DNA of 64,000 nt from Cyclobacteriaceae bacterium (GTDB lineage: Bacteria > Bacteroidota > Bacteroidia > Cytophagales > Cyclobacteriaceae): positions 37,140 to 101,139 of the forward strand of contig PXCO01000184.1 in the NCBI GenBank assembly GCA_003565295.1. The letters are read 5' to 3'. Below are positions 3,026 to 58,040 of the stretch, piece after piece. The notes under the pieces are model-generated. The model was not told the DNA's origin. It saw nothing but the letters and a program-made list of their open reading frames with translations, and did not search any database. A program made the translations under genes and the position numbers. Position 1 is the first letter of the stretch. Each line of letters starts with the position of its first letter.

Positions 3026-5444
3026 AATCATCTCCCAAAATATCGGATTTTTTTGCTGTGGCCTTGTTTTGATTGATCCTAAAGTTGAGGGATAGGTTAA
3101 TTTGCCTCCTTCTGGGCAATATATCCCCTACGGTCACAAAGCCAGGCCCTTCAAAAATAAAACGGTTCCTCCTGGAATTGGCAATGTCCATGACATTTAA
3201 AACCAGTGTTCCCCTACCGTTAAACACCTCTTTACTGGCAGAGATATCGGCAAAGTACAATGCCCTCCTTACACCCTGAGCTACGCGTTGCCTGCCCTCA
3301 TAATTCCCCCTGATCTGCAGGTCTACGGCATTGGCAATGGTAAACCTACTGGTAAGTCTGGTAAACCAACTATAGGTATTGGTTTGGTAAAGGTCCATAA
3401 TATTGCTCGCATCAATATCTGCGTAAAAGAAGTTGAGGTTAAGATCCATTTTCCACCAGTCTGCCAACTGGTAATCGGTGGTAAATTCAGCTCCAAACGC
3501 CCGCTCTCCTACAAGGTTTTCAGGTATGGTGATGGAGTTGCCCATCTCATCTACTCTTCTTATCCTATCTATTTTATCCTTGGTGTCCCTAAAATACAAG
3601 GAAGAAAATATGGATCCGCGCTCAAGGTACTTTATGTGACCTATCTCAAAAGCATCCGTAAATTCGGGATCCAAATCAGGGTTTCCACTGAAAAAATTCC
3701 TTTGATCTGCAAAAGTCATAAAAGGGCTTAGGTCATTATAAAACGGTCTTCTGATCCTTCTGCTATAGCTAATCTGAAATGCATCATCCGGGGAAACATT
3801 GTAAGTCAAATGGGCACTGGGGAATAGGTTCATATATTCCCTGGGATTCACTTCACCGGCCCTAACCAGGGTGGTCTTCACATCCGTATATTCAGCCCTT
3901 AATCCAGCTTGATAGGTGAGCTTGTTGGATTTATTCCCCAAAATAGCATAGGCAGCATGGATGTTCTCATTGTAGAGAAATATATCGTCCAGCCCGGGCA
4001 AGGGCACAAATTCACCTGTCTCAGTTTGCTCGCTGACGTTAAAGTCGTTTTCCATGTCTCTGAAACTACTCCGAAGGCCAGTCTCAAAATTACCTTCCTT
4101 GCCTATGGGCTTGGTGTAATCCAACTGGAAAAGCCACTGATCCTCAAACTCATCATTAAGAGAGGTTTGAAGCAGACTTCTGGATGGGATTGGGGTACCA
4201 TCTGGCCTAAAAGCTCCTTCGGTATACACCTGATCCGAATTTTCCCAATATTTCAAAAAGGTGACCGAGGCCACCAGCTCATGCCCACTTTCCTCAAAAG
4301 ACCTCTTAAAGGAAACATTGTACTCGGAGTTGGGCTCTTTTTCGTCTTCTATCTGCCTTCTTAACGCATAACTGTCCATTACCCCGGAAGGGGAATAGTC
4401 TTCATAGCGGATATCTGTAATCCTCTCCGCATCACTTCTTCGTAACAGGTAGGAAGCTGTCAAAATATTGTTATCATTGAAGAAGTAATCCAATCCGGCC
4501 CTGATATTATTGTTTATACTATTTACCGTGCCAGTGGTAAATTGTTCAGAATAAAAGGTGGTATCGGCATTGGCAATATCCTGCCTTAGGTCACCAACCC
4601 TGGGGACTTTCCGATATGCCAACCCATAATTGATGAACCAATTGATCTTGTTATGCCTATAATTCAGGTTGGCGGCAAACCCATAGTTTGTGGGATTACC
4701 CAGTATGCCTTCAAAGGAACCGTTAAATCCCTGGGCACTTTCTTTTTTGAGTACAATGTTGATAACCCCTGCCATGCCCTCCGCCTCGTATCTGGCCGAA
4801 GGATTAGTGATCACCTCCACCCTCTCTATCAAGTTGGCAGGAAGCTGCTGCAGTCCGCTGCTCCCTTTGAAACTTACCAGACCGGAAGGTTTGCCATCCA
4901 CCAATATCCTAACATTTTCACTTCCCCTTAGCCTGATATTCCCCTCGGGGTCCACCGCTATGGAAGGCAGGTTCATCAGTACATCCGTAGCCGTTCCCCC
5001 TATATTTGCCAGGTCCTTACCAACGTTAAAAATCCTTTTGTCCAAGGCCAGTTCCATCATATTCCGCTGACCCTGTATGACCACCTCATCCAGGTCTTCC
5101 GCGGAGGCATCTAAGAGAATGTCTCCTAGGTTTACCGGGTTTGCACCTGGAGCAACCTTCACATCACCAATACGCTTTGGGGAGTAACCCATAAATTCTA
5201 CTACCAATTCATAGTTTCCTTGGGGGGCGCTCAGGCTGAAATTTCCGTTTTGATCGGTGATACTGCCATCCACCAATTGGCGACCGCTATCCGAACTACG
5301 GTAAAGGCTCACCGTGGCAAACTCCAAGGCCTCTTTGCTCTGCGTATCGACCACCTTGCCGGTGATTTTTCCATTGCCCTGGGCCCAAGCCGAGGGGAAA
5401 GCGCAAATAAGAAATAAAAAATAAAGGGGTATAAATCTTTTCAT
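3024..5444 (-). CDS. TonB-dependent receptor with N-terminal carboxypeptidase-regulatory-like domain (outer membrane beta-barrel family)
   Basis: GKITGKVVDTQSKEALEFATVSLY domain, plug (VLMNLPSIAVDPEGNIRLRGSENVRILVDGKPSGL) and barrel repeats. Confidence 0.9.
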   Translation of the reverse strand: MKRFIPLYFLFLICAFPSAWAQGNGKITGKVVDTQSKEALEFATVSLYRSSDSGRQLVDGSITDQNGNFSLSAPQGNYELVVEFMGYSPKRIGDVKVAPGANPVNLGDILLDASAEDLDEVVIQGQRNMMELALDKRIFNVGKDLANIGGTATDVLMNLPSIAVDPEGNIRLRGSENVRILVDGKPSGLVSFKGSSGLQQLPANLIERVEVITNPSARYEAEGMAGVINIVLKKESAQGFNGSFEGILGNPTNYGFAANLNYRHNKINWFINYGLAYRKVPRVGDLRQDIANADTTFYSEQFTTGTVNSINNNIRAGLDYFFNDNNILTASYLLRRSDAERITDIRYEDYSPSGVMDSYALRRQIEDEKEPNSEYNVSFKRSFEESGHELVASVTFLKYWENSDQVYTEGAFRPDGTPIPSRSLLQTSLNDEFEDQWLFQLDYTKPIGKEGNFETGLRSSFRDMENDFNVSEQTETGEFVPLPGLDDIFLYNENIHAAYAILGNKSNKLTYQAGLRAEYTDVKTTLVRAGEVNPREYMNLFPSAHLTYNVSPDDAFQISYSRRIRRPFYNDLSPFMTFADQRNFFSGNPDLDPEFTDAFEIGHIKYLERGSIFSSLYFRDTKDKIDRIRRVDEMGNSITIPENLVGERAFGAEFTTDYQLADWWKMDLNLNFFYADIDASNIMDLYQTNTYSWFTRLTSRFTIANAVDLQIRGNYEGRQRVAQGVRRALYFADISASKEVFNGRGTLVLNVMDIANSRRNRFIFEGPGFVTVGDILPRRRQINLSLNFRINQNKATAKKSDILGDD

Positions 5445-5603
5445 CTGTTTATAATTTCTTTTCAGCGGTCATTACCTGTCCCGAACTTGTTTCGGGAACT
5501 TGCCCCGTACCACAGGTCGGGGTGGAATCTCGCTTTGATAATCATCCCTCTGTGTGAGGTTCTCCTCATGCCCTGACCGCCGTCAGGACAGGCTCGATTT
5601 CAT
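5445..5603 (-). repeat. Intergenic element copy A, abutting ATG of the TonB receptor
   Basis: Reverse complement reads ATGAAATCGAGCCTGTCCTGACGGCGGTCAGGGCATGAGGAGAACCTCACACAGAGGGATGATTATCAAAGCGAGATTCC...CCCGAAACAAGTTCGGGACAGGTAATGACCGCTGAAAAGAAATTATAAACAG|ATGAAAAGA. Confidence 0.9.
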
Positions 5604-10866: not shown

Positions 10867-11646
10867 TCAAAAGGGCCGGTTCAGTGCCGCATACCAAATG
10901 CCTCCCAATACATGCAATAGGAAACCTTCATCTTCAAAGGCCTCATCCGTATGCCCCAGACCGGTATAAAAGACCCTACCCCCGTCATACTCATGGTACC
11001 AGGAGATTGGATGCGTGCCCATGCCCATGCTTTTGCCATCTCTTTCCCCTACTTCATAAGAAGTCTCATCTAGTTCCACCAACACCTTCACGTCCTCATT
11101 GAAATTCTTAAAAGCATACCACTCATCGGTCATCAACCAGTATTCCGGCAGGTGGTAAGTGGAGGGATGATTTTTATCCACTACTTTGAGCCGTGCAGTC
11201 TGCTGATGGGGATGATAGGCAAATTGGCCTCCTATCAGTCCAGTATACCAAGGCCACTCATATTCCGTATCCGTGGCGCTGTGTATGCCCACCACACCTT
11301 TTCCACTGCGAACAAAATCTTCAAATGCTTCTTTCTGCTCAGCATTAAAAATGGTACCCGTGGTGCTCACCAGGATGATTACATCATAGTTTTTCAATTT
11401 TTCCTTGGTAAACTCTCTATCATCTTCTGTGGTATAGACACTGAAGCGGTGTTTTTCCGCCAATTTCTTCATGGCCACTACCCCATCGGGAATGGATTGG
11501 TGCCTGAATCCCTTGGTCTTACTGAACACCAATGCCTTAAACTGAGGTTTTTGCTGTGAAATGGCCTCGGGGAGGCAAAGAAACACCATAAGGACAAATG
11601 CCAACAGGTATTTTGAGTTTGATCGTTGTGTGCTACTTTTATTCAT
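10867..11646 (-). CDS. ThuA-like domain protein (secreted)
   Basis: ALVFSKTKGFRHQSIPDGV, GVVGIHSATDTEYEWPWYTGLIGGQFAYHP, WYHEYDGGRVFYTGLGHTDEAF. Confidence 0.9.
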   Translation of the reverse strand: MNKSSTQRSNSKYLLAFVLMVFLCLPEAISQQKPQFKALVFSKTKGFRHQSIPDGVVAMKKLAEKHRFSVYTTEDDREFTKEKLKNYDVIILVSTTGTIFNAEQKEAFEDFVRSGKGVVGIHSATDTEYEWPWYTGLIGGQFAYHPHQQTARLKVVDKNHPSTYHLPEYWLMTDEWYAFKNFNEDVKVLVELDETSYEVGERDGKSMGMGTHPISWYHEYDGGRVFYTGLGHTDEAFEDEGFLLHVLGGIWYAALNRPF

Positions 11647-11884
11647 GTGTTTATAATTTGATTTTCAATGGTCATTACCTGTCCCGAACTTGTTTCGGGA
11701 ACTTGTCCCGATCTTCGGGATGGCCCCTGCCTGCCCCGAACTCGATTCGGGGAACTTGATTCGGGGAACTTGCTTCGGGGGAATCTCGCATCTCCCCGAT
11801 AGCCCCGATAGCTATCGGGGGGGCATCCCTCTGTGTGTCGCTTGCGTCATGCCCTGACTGCCGTCAGGACAGGCTCGATTTCAT
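11647..11884 (-). repeat. Intergenic element copy B (long form with expanded subrepeats)
   Basis: Reverse complement ATGAAATCGAGCCTGTCCTGACGGCAGTCAGGGCATGACGCAAGCGACACACAGAGGGATG...CCCCGATAGCTATCGGGG...CCCGAAGCAAGTTCCCCGAATCAAGTTCCCCGAATCGAGTTC...CCCGAAACAAGTTCGGGACAGGTAATGACCATTGAAAATCAAATTATAAACAC|ATG. Confidence 0.9.
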
Positions 11885-28382: not shown

Positions 28383-28485
28383 ATGAAATCGAGGAAATCC
28401 CTAACAAGGGTGGATGATGATCATTTACTAGGCTGCCCCGAAACGAGTGATGGCAGGTTATGACTGCCGAAAAGAAATAATAAAC
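28383..28485 (+). repeat. Intergenic element copy E (decayed)
   Basis: ATGAAATCGAG at the left; ...GGATGATGATCAT...CCCCGAAACGAGTGATGGCAGGTTATGACTGCCGAAAAGAAATAATAAAC at the right, an eroded match to the conserved 3' module; same orientation relative to the next gene. Confidence 0.7.
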
Positions 28486-28574
28486 ATAAGGCTTAATTGG
28501 TTGACACATCCACTGATTAGAACGGGATAAATTTAATGGTAACCAGTCAAGATTAGAACAATATTATCAATTAC

Positions 28575-42460: not shown

Positions 42461-43111
42461 ATGAAAAAACTTCATAGATTCCTGGAACATACGCTTCTAA
42501 AAGCAGACATGAACTATCAAAACGTAGAAGAAATCGTGGACCAGGCAAAGGAGTTTCAGTTTAAAGGAGTGTGCATTCCTCCATTTTGGGTAAAAAAAGT
42601 CAAAAGAGACCTACTTGAAGAGGACATACAGGTGGTTACGGTGATTGGGTTTCCACTGGGAAACACCAGCACAGAAGCTAAGGTAGCTGAAACCCTACAA
42701 GCCATTAAGGATGGTGCAGACGAGTTGGATGTCGTTTGGTCGCTTACTGCTTTTAAGGCTGGTATGAACTGGCCAAAAATTGAACTGGCCAAGTTATCAG
42801 GCCTATGTCATGAGCAAGAGAAAATACTTAAAGTGATCATAGAAACAGCCTACCTCAATAAGGAGGAAATCCTAAAAGCCTGTGAAATCTGCAGGGATGC
42901 GGGAGCTGATTTTGTGAAGACTTCTACAGGATTTGCTAAGGAAGGTGCAAAATTGGAGCATATTCGACTGATGAGAGAGCATCTTCCCAGTCAGGTGGGA
43001 ATTAAGGCAAGTGGAGGGATCAAAACAAAAGAGCAGGCACTGGCCTTTATAGCAGCGGGTGCAGACAGGATTGGCACTAGCAATGCAGTAGGCATTGTAA
43101 ATGAAACTTAG
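42461..43111 (+). CDS. deoC: Deoxyribose-phosphate aldolase
   Basis: LEHTLLKADM, FKGVCIPPFWV, VVTVIGFPLGNTSTEAKVAE, LKVIIETAYLNKEEI, FVKTSTGFAKEGA, GIKASGGIKTKEQA. Confidence 0.95.
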   Translation: MKKLHRFLEHTLLKADMNYQNVEEIVDQAKEFQFKGVCIPPFWVKKVKRDLLEEDIQVVTVIGFPLGNTSTEAKVAETLQAIKDGADELDVVWSLTAFKAGMNWPKIELAKLSGLCHEQEKILKVIIETAYLNKEEILKACEICRDAGADFVKTSTGFAKEGAKLEHIRLMREHLPSQVGIKASGGIKTKEQALAFIAAGADRIGTSNAVGIVNET

Positions 43112-47821: not shown

Positions 47822-49693
47822 ATGAATGCTAAGCAGCTATTTTTCCTAGCCGTACTAGCTGTAATTGGGATACACGGGTGTGTTTTTCAGCCTCATGAGG
47901 AATTTGTAAAAACCATAACTCCTCCCGAAGCAATTACGGTCACATTAGAATTAAACAGCCCAGTTTTTAATCATCCCTATTATCTGATTGAACGCACCAA
48001 TTTCCATATAAAGCTTCAAGACACTGGCTACCCCTTAATCGCAAGTGAAGTGGTTGTGGGTGGTTCGTTAATTCAATCCCAAGTGGAAAACAATAGGGAT
48101 TTGTATTTTTTATTGGACCCCTATCAACATCGAGTCGGCAACCATACCGTTTCAATAAGGTGTTATTTAGATACGAAGTCGGGTAGTTTGGCCAACATTG
48201 TGGGGATGGAGAATTACGTTGTTGACCAGTCCTTTGAAATTCGGATAGATTCCACTCCGCCTGTTTTTGATTCATTTCAGGCTGAAATTGAGAACGGTTA
48301 TCTAACCTTTAATTGGAAGAATCAGTCAAACCTTCAAAACTTTGTCTATACCATTCAGAGAAAAAATCATCCCTATTTACCTATTCCCGACACGGTAATT
48401 TTTGACCCCAAGATAAATCGGTTTATTGACTATGGCTTTATAGGTGGAAATTTAGACTACAAGATAATTGCAAAAGGGTTTGGTTTTGAAACAGTGCTGG
48501 GAGAGGGTTCAATTTATCATAAAGCCGCTGATTTTACCATCACCCGTGAACCGGCCGGGCAAACTAGGTTGTCATGGACAAACAGGCAATTTGCGGGAGC
48601 AAACCAGGAGTTGCACATTAAGCCCCAGTATTATTTTAGTGGGGAAATAAAGGTGCCATTTACCTCTTCCGGACAAGTTGAACTTGGTTATTACCATTTT
48701 GCTCAGCTATTAATGCTCAATGTGGAGTTTTACAGCCTCAACAACAATAGCAGGAAACATGTTGAACTCGTTGAATACATTCCCATACCATCCCTTAAAC
48801 CTTTCACTTTCTTCAGACTTCTTGGTAAATCCAACAAATTATTGATAGGAAACGCGGAAATGCTGTATCGGTATAACTTGGAGGAAACCATACATGTGGA
48901 GGATAGTCTTAGGTTTTCGGATTTGGGATTAACATGGACAAATAATGCAGCAGTCGTATGTCCCGATGAATCCAGAATTTATATTTCTGGAAAATGGGAG
49001 AATATTCACGAAAGCAAATTTTTAAGTTTGGACCCCCATAATTTTGACGACATTCAACCCCAAGTGATGAATAGCATATTAAGTTCGATTAATTTTCCCA
49101 TTGGGGATAGTTATCCTTTGGTGCTGGAGAATGTATCCAACAATGGATTGATTACCATGGGGGTGGCAGGAAACTCATTGCTGTATGACATTTATGAAGA
49201 AAAGGTGATTTGGCATACCTCACAAAACATGAATTATCTGCCGGCTGTTTCCGCAGACGGGAAGTTTTTGACCGTAAATACATTTGAATCATGGGTTTAC
49301 GAAATTAGAGAAGGAAAGGCACATAAATATGGGAGGATAGATCCTGGATACCTGATTTTTCTTAATAACGGGACTGAAATCATGACTGCCCCACATCCTA
49401 TTAATAGATGGGGGACAGATGCCACCCACCTTACGGTATTTGATCTTTCCAATCCACCTGTAAATCCGGACTCCTACCTTACCCGTCTGAGAAGTGACGA
49501 TATGCCCAGCCTTCTTGACTTGTATGGTGTAAATTACGAACCTGTAAGTGGGTACCTTGCTTTTTCCTATAGCGATCAACTCAAACTATATAATGTTACT
49601 TCCATGAGTTTTGAAAAGACCTATCCGGGATACTTTCTTTATGTAGACAAGTACTTGTTATATAACGAAGGGTTTATTTTATGGGCTCCATGA
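47822..49693 (+). CDS. Hypothetical lipoprotein, beta-propeller-like
   Basis: MNAKQLFFLAVLAVIGIHGC lipobox; repeated beta-rich blades in the C-terminal half. ATG 47822 preferred over 47744. Confidence 0.75.
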   Translation: MNAKQLFFLAVLAVIGIHGCVFQPHEEFVKTITPPEAITVTLELNSPVFNHPYYLIERTNFHIKLQDTGYPLIASEVVVGGSLIQSQVENNRDLYFLLDPYQHRVGNHTVSIRCYLDTKSGSLANIVGMENYVVDQSFEIRIDSTPPVFDSFQAEIENGYLTFNWKNQSNLQNFVYTIQRKNHPYLPIPDTVIFDPKINRFIDYGFIGGNLDYKIIAKGFGFETVLGEGSIYHKAADFTITREPAGQTRLSWTNRQFAGANQELHIKPQYYFSGEIKVPFTSSGQVELGYYHFAQLLMLNVEFYSLNNNSRKHVELVEYIPIPSLKPFTFFRLLGKSNKLLIGNAEMLYRYNLEETIHVEDSLRFSDLGLTWTNNAAVVCPDESRIYISGKWENIHESKFLSLDPHNFDDIQPQVMNSILSSINFPIGDSYPLVLENVSNNGLITMGVAGNSLLYDIYEEKVIWHTSQNMNYLPAVSADGKFLTVNTFESWVYEIREGKAHKYGRIDPGYLIFLNNGTEIMTAPHPINRWGTDATHLTVFDLSNPPVNPDSYLTRLRSDDMPSLLDLYGVNYEPVSGYLAFSYSDQLKLYNVTSMSFEKTYPGYFLYVDKYLLYNEGFILWAP

Positions 49694-49841
49694 AATCGAG
49701 CCTTTCCATACGGCAGTCAGGGCATGACGAAAACGTCACACAGTGGGATAGCTATCGGGGAGATGCGAGATTCCCCCGAAGCAAGTTCCCCGAAACAAGT
49801 TCGGGACAGGTAATGACCGCTGAAAAACAAATTATAAACAG
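49690..49841 (+). repeat. Intergenic element copy C
   Basis: ATGAAATCGAGCCTTTCCATACGGCAGTCAGGGCATGACG...GATAGCTATCGGGGAGATGCGAGATTCCCCCGAAGCAAGTTCCCCGAAACAAGTTCGGGACAGGTAATGACCGCTGAAAAACAAATTATAAACAG|ATGAAATTA. Confidence 0.9.
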
Positions 49842-50534
49842 ATGAAATTATTTGCGTTAATCATTCTCCAGTTTGTCATTATTTTCAGCGCAAATGCGCA
49901 GGAAAAATCCACTTTGGTTTTCCGTGTGGGCATGGGCAGTTACTCCATGAAATCGCAAAGACTGTTTCAGAACGATTTTTCAAAGCAATTGCGCATCCCC
50001 TTTAGAAAGGTACACGAATTTCCCAATTTCCCCACTTTTGGCGGAGCCTTGGGCTTTAGGATTTCAGATGTCGCATCAATGGGGTTATGGGGTGAATTTT
50101 CTTCCACGGGCGGCAGGTTACATTATAGCGATTATTCCGGCCACGCATTGTTGGATCAGGTGTTGACCTCCTTTCAGGGAGGCCCCTTCGCCCAATACCG
50201 AATCAATAAATCGGAAGTGTGGCCTTTGTATGTTACGGCCCACGGATCTATTGTGGCAGTGACGGAAAATATAAGGTCTGAATTTAATATCGGGCTTCAA
50301 TCTCAGATAGAGCAAATCAAATTAAAGGCGACCAATTTTGGAATCCGCCCTGGACTGATGCTTGGCCACTCTGTTGGTGTTTTGAATTTTCAGTTTGGCG
50401 TAGGGGCCGAAATCCAGTCGACTGGTAAATTACAGGATAATAAGGATGCGGTATTGATGACGTCCGACAGAAAGGAATTATCAGCACAATGGAGCGGATG
50501 GCGAATGACCCTGGGAGTAGGGTTTGTGCTTTAG
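49842..50534 (+). CDS. Hypothetical outer membrane beta-barrel protein
   Basis: Signal peptide (FALIILQFVIIFSANAQ), alternating hydrophobic strands, C-terminal WRMTLGVGFVL*. Confidence 0.7.
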   Translation: MKLFALIILQFVIIFSANAQEKSTLVFRVGMGSYSMKSQRLFQNDFSKQLRIPFRKVHEFPNFPTFGGALGFRISDVASMGLWGEFSSTGGRLHYSDYSGHALLDQVLTSFQGGPFAQYRINKSEVWPLYVTAHGSIVAVTENIRSEFNIGLQSQIEQIKLKATNFGIRPGLMLGHSVGVLNFQFGVGAEIQSTGKLQDNKDAVLMTSDRKELSAQWSGWRMTLGVGFVL

Positions 50535-57022: not shown

Positions 57023-57130
57023 TGGTTCAGGTGACAGCTAATTTGAACCCGAGGAATATAACGCCTTCCAGTTCCTGAAAACCTGGAAGGTGTTTTCATT
57101 TAAGGATCATGCGTTTACATATCATCGAGC

Positions 57131-57262
57131 ATGAATCGAGCGTCACACACAGATAATTATCATAGGGAGACAATCCTGGATCAGGCTAGTGTTAAGCAAT
57201 CTGCCTGACGGTTTACCTACGGAAGATTAACAGCAAGGGGGAATGGCAGTCAGGGGTAACCG
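57131..57262 (+). repeat. Intergenic element copy F (strongly decayed), in tandem with copy D
   Basis: ATGAATCGAGCGTCACACACAGATAATTATCATAGGGAGACAATCC resembles the left and middle modules; CAGGGGTAACCGATGAAA resembles the right-end CAGGTAATGACCGCTGAAA and leads straight into copy D. Confidence 0.5.
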
Positions 57263-57372
57263 ATGAAATCGAGCCTGTCCTGACGGCAGTCAGGGCATGA
57301 CGCAAGCGACACACAGAGGGATGATTATCAAAGCGAGATTCCATCTGCCCACTAAAAATAAATTATAAACAG
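57263..57372 (+). repeat. Intergenic element copy D (short form)
   Basis: ATGAAATCGAGCCTGTCCTGACGGCAGTCAGGGCATGACGCAAGCGACACACAGAGGGATGATTATCAAAGCGAGATTCCATCTGCCCACTAAAAATAAATTATAAACAG|ATGAAATGA. Confidence 0.9.
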
Positions 57373-57413
57373 ATGAAATGAGGATTTAAAGCAGTTTTAA
57401 TAAACATTCTCCA

Positions 57414-58040
57414 ATGAGCATCAATAGCTACGATTTTATTGCACCCTTCTATGATCCGCTTTCTTCACTTTTGTTAGGGAATTCTTATCGACAAAGTAAA
57501 CATACCTTTTTTGAATGCATCACACCCAACATGAACATCTGGTGCCTAGGTGGGGGTACAGGTAATATGCTCCCCACTTTATTATCAATGAATGCACCCA
57601 ATGGCAAGGTCATCTATACTGAATCTTCTCAAAAGATGCTGGAATTGGCAAAAAAGAGGGTGCCTGAACAGCAAACTAGGAGGGTAATATTCCATTATAA
57701 TGACACCTTTGATTGGCCCATCAGCGCAAGAGCAGATATGATCATCTGCCAATACTTCTTGGATGTACTCACTGATTTTCAATTGAATGCCTTATTTTCA
57801 AAGTTAGGGACGGTCACCCACCCTGCCACTCGCATGTTGTTTGTGGATTTTTATCCTTTGCCATCTAAATCGCTATTGCTTTACACCATGATCCATACTT
57901 TTGGTTGGGCCACAGGCCATCCGAGAAAGGACCTTCCTGACTATGCATATTATTTTACAAAGTACGGCTGGGTCACCGATGAGGAGAGAAACTTTGAAAA
58001 CGGTTTTATCAAAGCAAAATGTTTGGTAAGGGAGATTTAA
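57414..58040 (+). CDS. Class I SAM-dependent methyltransferase
   Basis: YDFIAPFYDPLSSLLLG, NIWCLGGGTGNMLPTLL, VIYTESSQKMLELAKKRV. Confidence 0.85.
   Translation: MSINSYDFIAPFYDPLSSLLLGNSYRQSKHTFFECITPNMNIWCLGGGTGNMLPTLLSMNAPNGKVIYTESSQKMLELAKKRVPEQQTRRVIFHYNDTFDWPISARADMIICQYFLDVLTDFQLNALFSKLGTVTHPATRMLFVDFYPLPSKSLLLYTMIHTFGWATGHPRKDLPDYAYYFTKYGWVTDEERNFENGFIKAKCLVREI

Follow-up and report, generated by a model that had tools for sequence, protein, structure and literature searches.

In the IS200/IS605 family, a guide located 5' of the hairpin foot pairs both with the target in the flank and with the tetranucleotide that ends the element (PMC6006769). Another group of short repeats, the CGTC-tagged palindromes of 20-40 bp, is found in Bacteroidetes and other phyla with no associated transposase; in the mapped examples these lie mostly near gene 3' ends, and neither an ATGAAA target nor a start-codon junction is described for them (PMC3733652). 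The window, by which we mean the whole stretch of 64,000 nucleotides of a Cyclobacteriaceae genome analysed here, contains several copies of a gene-less element of ~90-200 bases, which is present in at least 200 copies per genome in the source marine bacterium and in its nearest sequenced relative. A search for this element in the papers that were available found no earlier account. The window copies are members of a non-autonomous mobile DNA family that inserts precisely, with an exchange point at AT^GAAA and an internal complementary guide.

The first-pass annotation had pointed to ATGAAA repeats bracketing the element, and such a bracket does exist and far exceeds chance. Exact matches to the 13-mer ATGAAATCGAGCC lie at window positions 49690 (+), 57263 (+), 5603 (-) and 11884 (-), for a chance expectation of ~0.002 matches in 64 kb on both strands, and the end motif GGCTCGATTTCAT, with at most one mismatch, gives 248 matches in the genome of the window (5.6 Mb in 403 contigs) vs 2 for the reversed control. 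The right flanks of these four copies, read at each copy, agree with that annotation, being ATGAAAT, ATGAAAT, ATGAAAA and ATGAATA respectively (ATGAAATTA at 49842, ATGAAATGA at 57373, ATGAAAAG at 5444(-) and ATGAATAA at 11646(-)). At the level of the family, 99 of 397 Cyclobacteriaceae genomes and 28 of 85 genera contain the pattern ATGAAATCGAGCMTG, with a maximum of 232 per genome, and its reversed control is almost always zero across the 397 genomes. An Rfam search with the element gave no meaningful match, and the element was not matched in viral contigs (exact 32-mer) or plasmids. Many of the 403 contigs of the window's genome terminate in or beside element copies (e.g. C115, C173, C132, C324 and C168), and the assembly has probably been broken up by the family.

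A set of 47 units was excised from the window's genome and later one of 132 units from this genome and Pleomorphovibrio marinus SW125, a member of the same genus, combined. Unit lengths in the two species cluster at 85-92, 110-140 and 148-175 and above, the shortest units being the core (~88 bp) and the longer ones adding the palindromes CCTGACGGCAGTCAGG, CCCGAAACAAGTTCGGG and CCGATAGCTATCGG. The element can be written as [GAAATCGAGC...ACANAT], with a left end GAAAT(CGAGC/GCCCA). Approximately one quarter to one third of the arrays consist of 2-4 head-to-tail units joined at CANAT-GAAAT; the decayed copy that had been described as running into the next one at the same junction does so, the tandem units sharing the core (Table 1).

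Table 1. Element units, their parts and an empty site in the window
Feature	Position	Strand	Remarks
Element unit, 152 bp	49692..49843	+	AT of the left flank at 49690-49691; on the right, ATG of 230-aa ORF at 49842-49844
Stop TGA of 649-aa ORF, upstream of the 49692 unit	49691-49693	+	Presumed former ATGA stop/start overlap
ATTCC, internal guide half of the 49692 unit	49770..49774	+	Pairs with left end GAAAT (49692-49696)
Right terminus CAGAT of the 49692 unit	49839..49843	+	Last two bases and flanking G form the start codon
Element unit, 110 bp	57265..57374	+	Right end ATGAAATGA; start of a methyltransferase ORF at 57414, 41 nt further downstream
Complete internal guide ATTCC-ATCTG	57338..57347	+	Complementary to own joined ends CAGAT-GAAAT (57370-57374 with 57265-57269)
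Decayed unit (F)	~57127..57262	+	Head-to-tail into the 57265 unit; seen by direct reading, without further alignment
Unit A, 159 bp	5443..5601	-	Ends on start codon of 806-aa TonB-dependent outer-membrane protein ORF; P. marinus site empty
Unit B, 238 bp, with extra internal palindromes	11645..11882	-	Ends on start codon of ThuA-family ORF
Decayed unit, 105 bp	28385..28489	+	Right end ATAAACAT-AAGG; 348-aa ORF starts ~87 nt downstream
Empty site, start codon ATGAAAAAA of 216-aa ORF	42461..42463	+	Reciprocal case: orthologous place in P. marinus holds a 134-bp unit at the start codon (L148:3507-3640)

The comparison of orthologous sites that the annotation had proposed was carried out, and a single ATGAAA or ATGAATA was found in the relatives. 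For copy A, ATGAAA stands once in P. marinus, where the ORF of the outer-membrane protein ortholog begins, and the sequence upstream can be aligned as far as this ATGAAA. For copy B, the orthologous site in P. marinus is a single ATGAATAAAA, and the element is also absent from Lunatibacter, Lunatimonas, Cyclobacterium and Echinicola, so that the filled state of the window is the derived one. Besides the reciprocal case at 42461 (Table 1), another insertion of P. marinus corresponds to a site that is empty both in the window's genome and in a further genome, G034. In addition, two loci that share a 98%-identical 1.7-kb flank have arrays that differ by exactly one 87-bp unit, gained or lost. The element thus inserts precisely and singly, and it does so also into its own junction, giving tandem arrays, and into coding DNA. 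One stretch of ~1.7 kb (L026 and L158) is 98% identical between species whose other orthologous DNA is at ~75%, which suggests that this stretch was transferred recently.

The exchange point is seen in three insertions of G034 that lie within RAYT-like genes (RAYT = TnpA_REP), the targets being deduced from intact homologues of these genes. In one case the target is ACAT^GAAAACC; in a second, CAG^GAAATGCCC became CAG-[GAAATCGAGC...AACCCAT]-GAAATGCCC; in a third, GCAA^GAAATT became GCAA-[GAAATCGAGC...ACAGAT]-GAAATT, a pair that rests on a synonymous AGG/AGA difference. As the AG^ and AA^ targets gained AT on the right only, the right-hand AT and the left-hand GAAAT are the element's own. The two copies of the bracket therefore differ in origin, the left one being composed of flank AT and element GAAAT and the right one of element AT and flank GAAA. 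The arrays of the two species follow this scheme: the left dinucleotide is AT in 71 of 88 and variable in 17, while the right-hand AT is found in 88 of 88 and is followed by GAAA in 75, the constancy of this AT being partly favoured by the search pattern and three decayed copies differing. The left GAAAT is constant while the fourth base of the target varies (GAAT, GAAG, GAAC). The target logo is ATGAAA, with no conserved flanks outside it.

Two interpretations of the bracket had been offered at first reading, a target-site duplication at ATGAAA start codons and a site-specific recombination using ATGAAA as the core. What stands of this pair is a precise insertion at ATGAAA, often at start codons; the duplication does not, and it is excluded by the left/right asymmetry together with the in-gene targets. 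In copy B, where the target is GAATA, the left end is still GAAATCG and the fourth target base (T) has not been copied leftward, and the AG^GAAAT and AA^GAAAT targets became AG- or AA-element-AT-GAAAT. A classical transposon or MITE inserted through a staggered cut, with ATGAAA as a target-site duplication of 6-7 bp, would account for ATGAAA being present on both sides of most copies, but the AT and GAAA halves come from different sources, each constant on the element's side with a variable partner, and no terminal inverted repeats link the two ends of a unit, which makes this explanation barely credible. The recombination proposal was closer, and the data go further in fixing the exchange point at AT^GAAA and in revealing an internal guide.

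Among the arrays with clean ends, the end falls precisely on an ATG that opens an ORF of 80 aa or more in 53 of 89 (in P. marinus, 41 of 57), the corresponding values for controls being 33% of intergenic ATGAAA and 22% of all ATGAAA, with ORF calling that is crude. In six arrays, including the one at 49690, an upstream ORF stops within the same ATGA. At 49690, the stop of the 649-aa ORF is made of the flank T and the element GA, and the start of the 230-aa ORF of the element AT and the flank G. Since GAAA is provided by the left end and AT by the right one, the codons are recreated when the element enters a start codon or an ATGA overlap, and genes may tolerate the element because its ends rebuild the codons that it interrupts. 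We hypothesise that insertions at start codons and ATGA overlaps would survive in this way, both codon halves being restored and the A-rich tail AAATTATAAACA becoming the new leader; ends that restore start codons would explain the presence of hundreds of copies at gene starts. Insertions away from start codons also favour AT (20 of 29), which indicates that ATGAAA is a true target preference and not the outcome of selection alone. It could be argued that the unit is not a transposon but a functional 5'-UTR leader, which homologous recombination or gene conversion has spread and which is retained because it controls genes. Such a role would be in line with the 60% of array ends that are gene starts and with the orthologous arrays that precede the same 401-aa gene in both species, but the insertions within RAYT-like genes and at non-start sites, the precise empty orthologous sites and the gain of one unit in otherwise identical DNA make it most unlikely.

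The internal guide is apparent on the top strand, where GAAAT(C/G) of the left end forms pairs with (G/C)ATTCC inside the unit. The sixth base is C:G in 102 and G:C in 13 of 117 units, a switch that may reflect one or two historical events only. The inner hairpin also shows compensatory forms (GACG/CGTC, GAGG/CCTC and GAGAA/TTCTC). In core units, ATTCC is directly followed by ATN'TG, which is complementary to the right end CANAT, and N:N' is a Watson-Crick pair in 68 of the 88 units having ATN'TG (A:T 31, G:C 20, C:G 17), whereas 5000 shuffles gave 30.6 on average and at most 48, the covariation cells being copies and not independent events. Except for one G-T, the 10-nt guide is consequently the reverse complement of CANAT-GAAAT, the sequence formed when the two ends of the same unit are joined; the ATN'TG half of the guide is missing in 44 of 132 units, many of them long, including window copy A and the unit at 49692. 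As shown by this covariation, the folded strand joins both ends on a single 10-nt guide. The hairpins receive modest support from DNA folding (z ~-1.5 to -2.3). On the bottom strand, the parts follow each other as flank-TTTC^ATN'TG-loop-CANAT-GGAAT-hairpin-ATTTC^flank. No second guide was found at the left end, which is the covarying stem ATN'TG/CANAT, and GGAA appears to be shared.

A guide complementary to both ends could also belong to an RNA, and the element might then be a top-strand RNA with an internal guide like that of group I introns, inserted through reverse transcription. The orientation of the element agrees with transcription at many sites. However, no catalytic core was recognised in the unit, Rfam gave no match and, to our knowledge, the known self-splicing introns are all far larger than 88 nt, so that RNA-level mobility is highly improbable. 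A tyrosine recombinase acting on the folded unit, with ATGAAA as the crossover core, would resemble the movement of integron attC cassettes, which share with the element the head-to-tail units, the identical junctions and the recombination sites folded from a single strand; crossover between identical short cores and a folded strand that brings the ends together are in agreement with such an enzyme. It nevertheless seems unlikely, as the targets have neither conserved arms nor dyad symmetry outside the 6-nt core, the single exchange point between AT and GAAA gives no sign of a multi-base overlap, and no attC-like boxes were seen by eye in the unit alignment. The element moreover differs from integron cassettes in being without cargo genes and in its genome-wide dispersal, with no integrase platform or single attI-like site seen.

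We consider single-strand transposition of the HUH type to be likely, and we propose, with a probability of roughly 60%, that the non-autonomous element is mobilised in single-stranded form, with insertion at AT^GAAA, by a Y1 (HUH) transposase acting in trans. In this mechanism, the bottom-strand GGAA would have the role that the guide tetranucleotide plays in IS200/IS605 and REP elements and would recognise TTTC at the end, in the flank and in the target, and the AT beside GGAA in the guide strand would widen recognition to TTTCAT, that is ATGAAA on the other strand. One shared GGAA guide with its neighbouring AT would thus predict the observed target, and a Y1 transposase encoded elsewhere would cut and rejoin the strand. 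A more specific proposal, which we put forward tentatively and at somewhat less than even odds, is that of a minimal one-guide transposon of ~88 nt, in which two stems and a 10-nt guide would serve both ends and the target, the matching of ends and target would rebuild codons, start codons and the ATGA overlaps within operons would offer a safe harbour throughout the genome, and the element could rewrite many gene leaders. If true, the element would rank with the smallest natural guided single-strand transposons described, with a natural guide-target pairing that spans the cut.

The enzyme was sought around the element and in the genomes that carry it. In the 965 kb examined, no transposase gene was found between family ends, and a search of the same sequence for an autonomous copy with ends 300-6000 bp apart gave a sole plausible match (L155), whose interior consists of common cellular genes and which terminates in a short unit of the usual type. 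The IS200-type TnpA genes (L046, L057-L067) have flanks that hold other palindromes and no matching ends, and the Y1 genes of seven genomes are without the element's ends. In the window's genome, one intact IS200-type TnpA gene (L046:700-2530, contig C161) lies amid several copies of another palindromic family of the GTTCAACCCGCTTCGGGGTTGG and CCCTTCGGGCTTCGG types. An IS91-type Y2 transposase was rejected as a general mover, being absent from the window's genome, G019 and G022; a second RAYT type (L077) was rejected as well, as it is missing in four element-rich genomes. Part of a unit also stands upstream of a Y1 gene that has decayed (L047:1095-1152), probably by chance. An L079-type RAYT subfamily (at least 68% identity, intact or relic) accompanies the unit in each of its six best-match genomes and is otherwise present in a single one of 53, counts that ignore shared ancestry. 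Its intact genes are flanked by their own GTGTAGT..ACTACAC (GTAG) repeats, and no element units were found near them within the stretches read. In the window's genome and P. marinus, this RAYT is found as relics only, and the family may now be stranded there. The relics are short (L332-L335 in the window's genome, L336 in P. marinus), and GTAG-type palindromes adjoin those of the window's genome. In G034, several RAYT-like genes (L083, L085, L341, L342 and L343) are broken by the element at three different positions; repeat insertions within the gene itself have been described for TnpA_REP subclass 2.4 too (PMC6006769). At another locus (L082), near the start of a RAYT, a short part of a RAYT-like gene has been replaced by the palindrome CCCCGATAGCTATCGGGG, which long units contain as well, as if inner palindromes moved on their own. 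The element constitutes a ready system in which to find the enzyme that moves transposase-less palindromic repeats in Bacteroidota.

Several features of the element recall described repeats and transposons. Its inner hairpin is often GACG...CGTC, as in the CGTC-tagged repeats. With REP sequences and REPINs it shares the hundreds of short palindromic copies per genome, mostly intergenic, a guide located 5' of a hairpin and a transposase presumed to act in trans; a RAYT subfamily is present in the six best-match genomes. The GT[A/G]G guide of the REP/RAYT systems is not present, however, the guide here being GGAA(T); the element has precise termini and a defined target, and the co-occurring RAYT carries GTAG repeats of its own. 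The likeness to IS200/IS605 elements such as IS608 and ISDra2 concerns insertion beside a short fixed target with no target duplication (here the bottom-strand TTTC^AT), the last four bases of the element, which are the target tetranucleotide (TTTC, bottom strand), and the guide GGAA, which lies immediately 5' of a hairpin and pairs with the end, ATTTC with GGAAT. In contrast to the hairpin and guide that each end possesses in these elements, one guide at a two-stem junction apparently serves both ends and the target here, there is no tnpA between the ends, and tandem arrays and a six-base recognition across the cut are observed. The process is of a known kind; what appears to be new is the use of one guide and the ends that restore codons.
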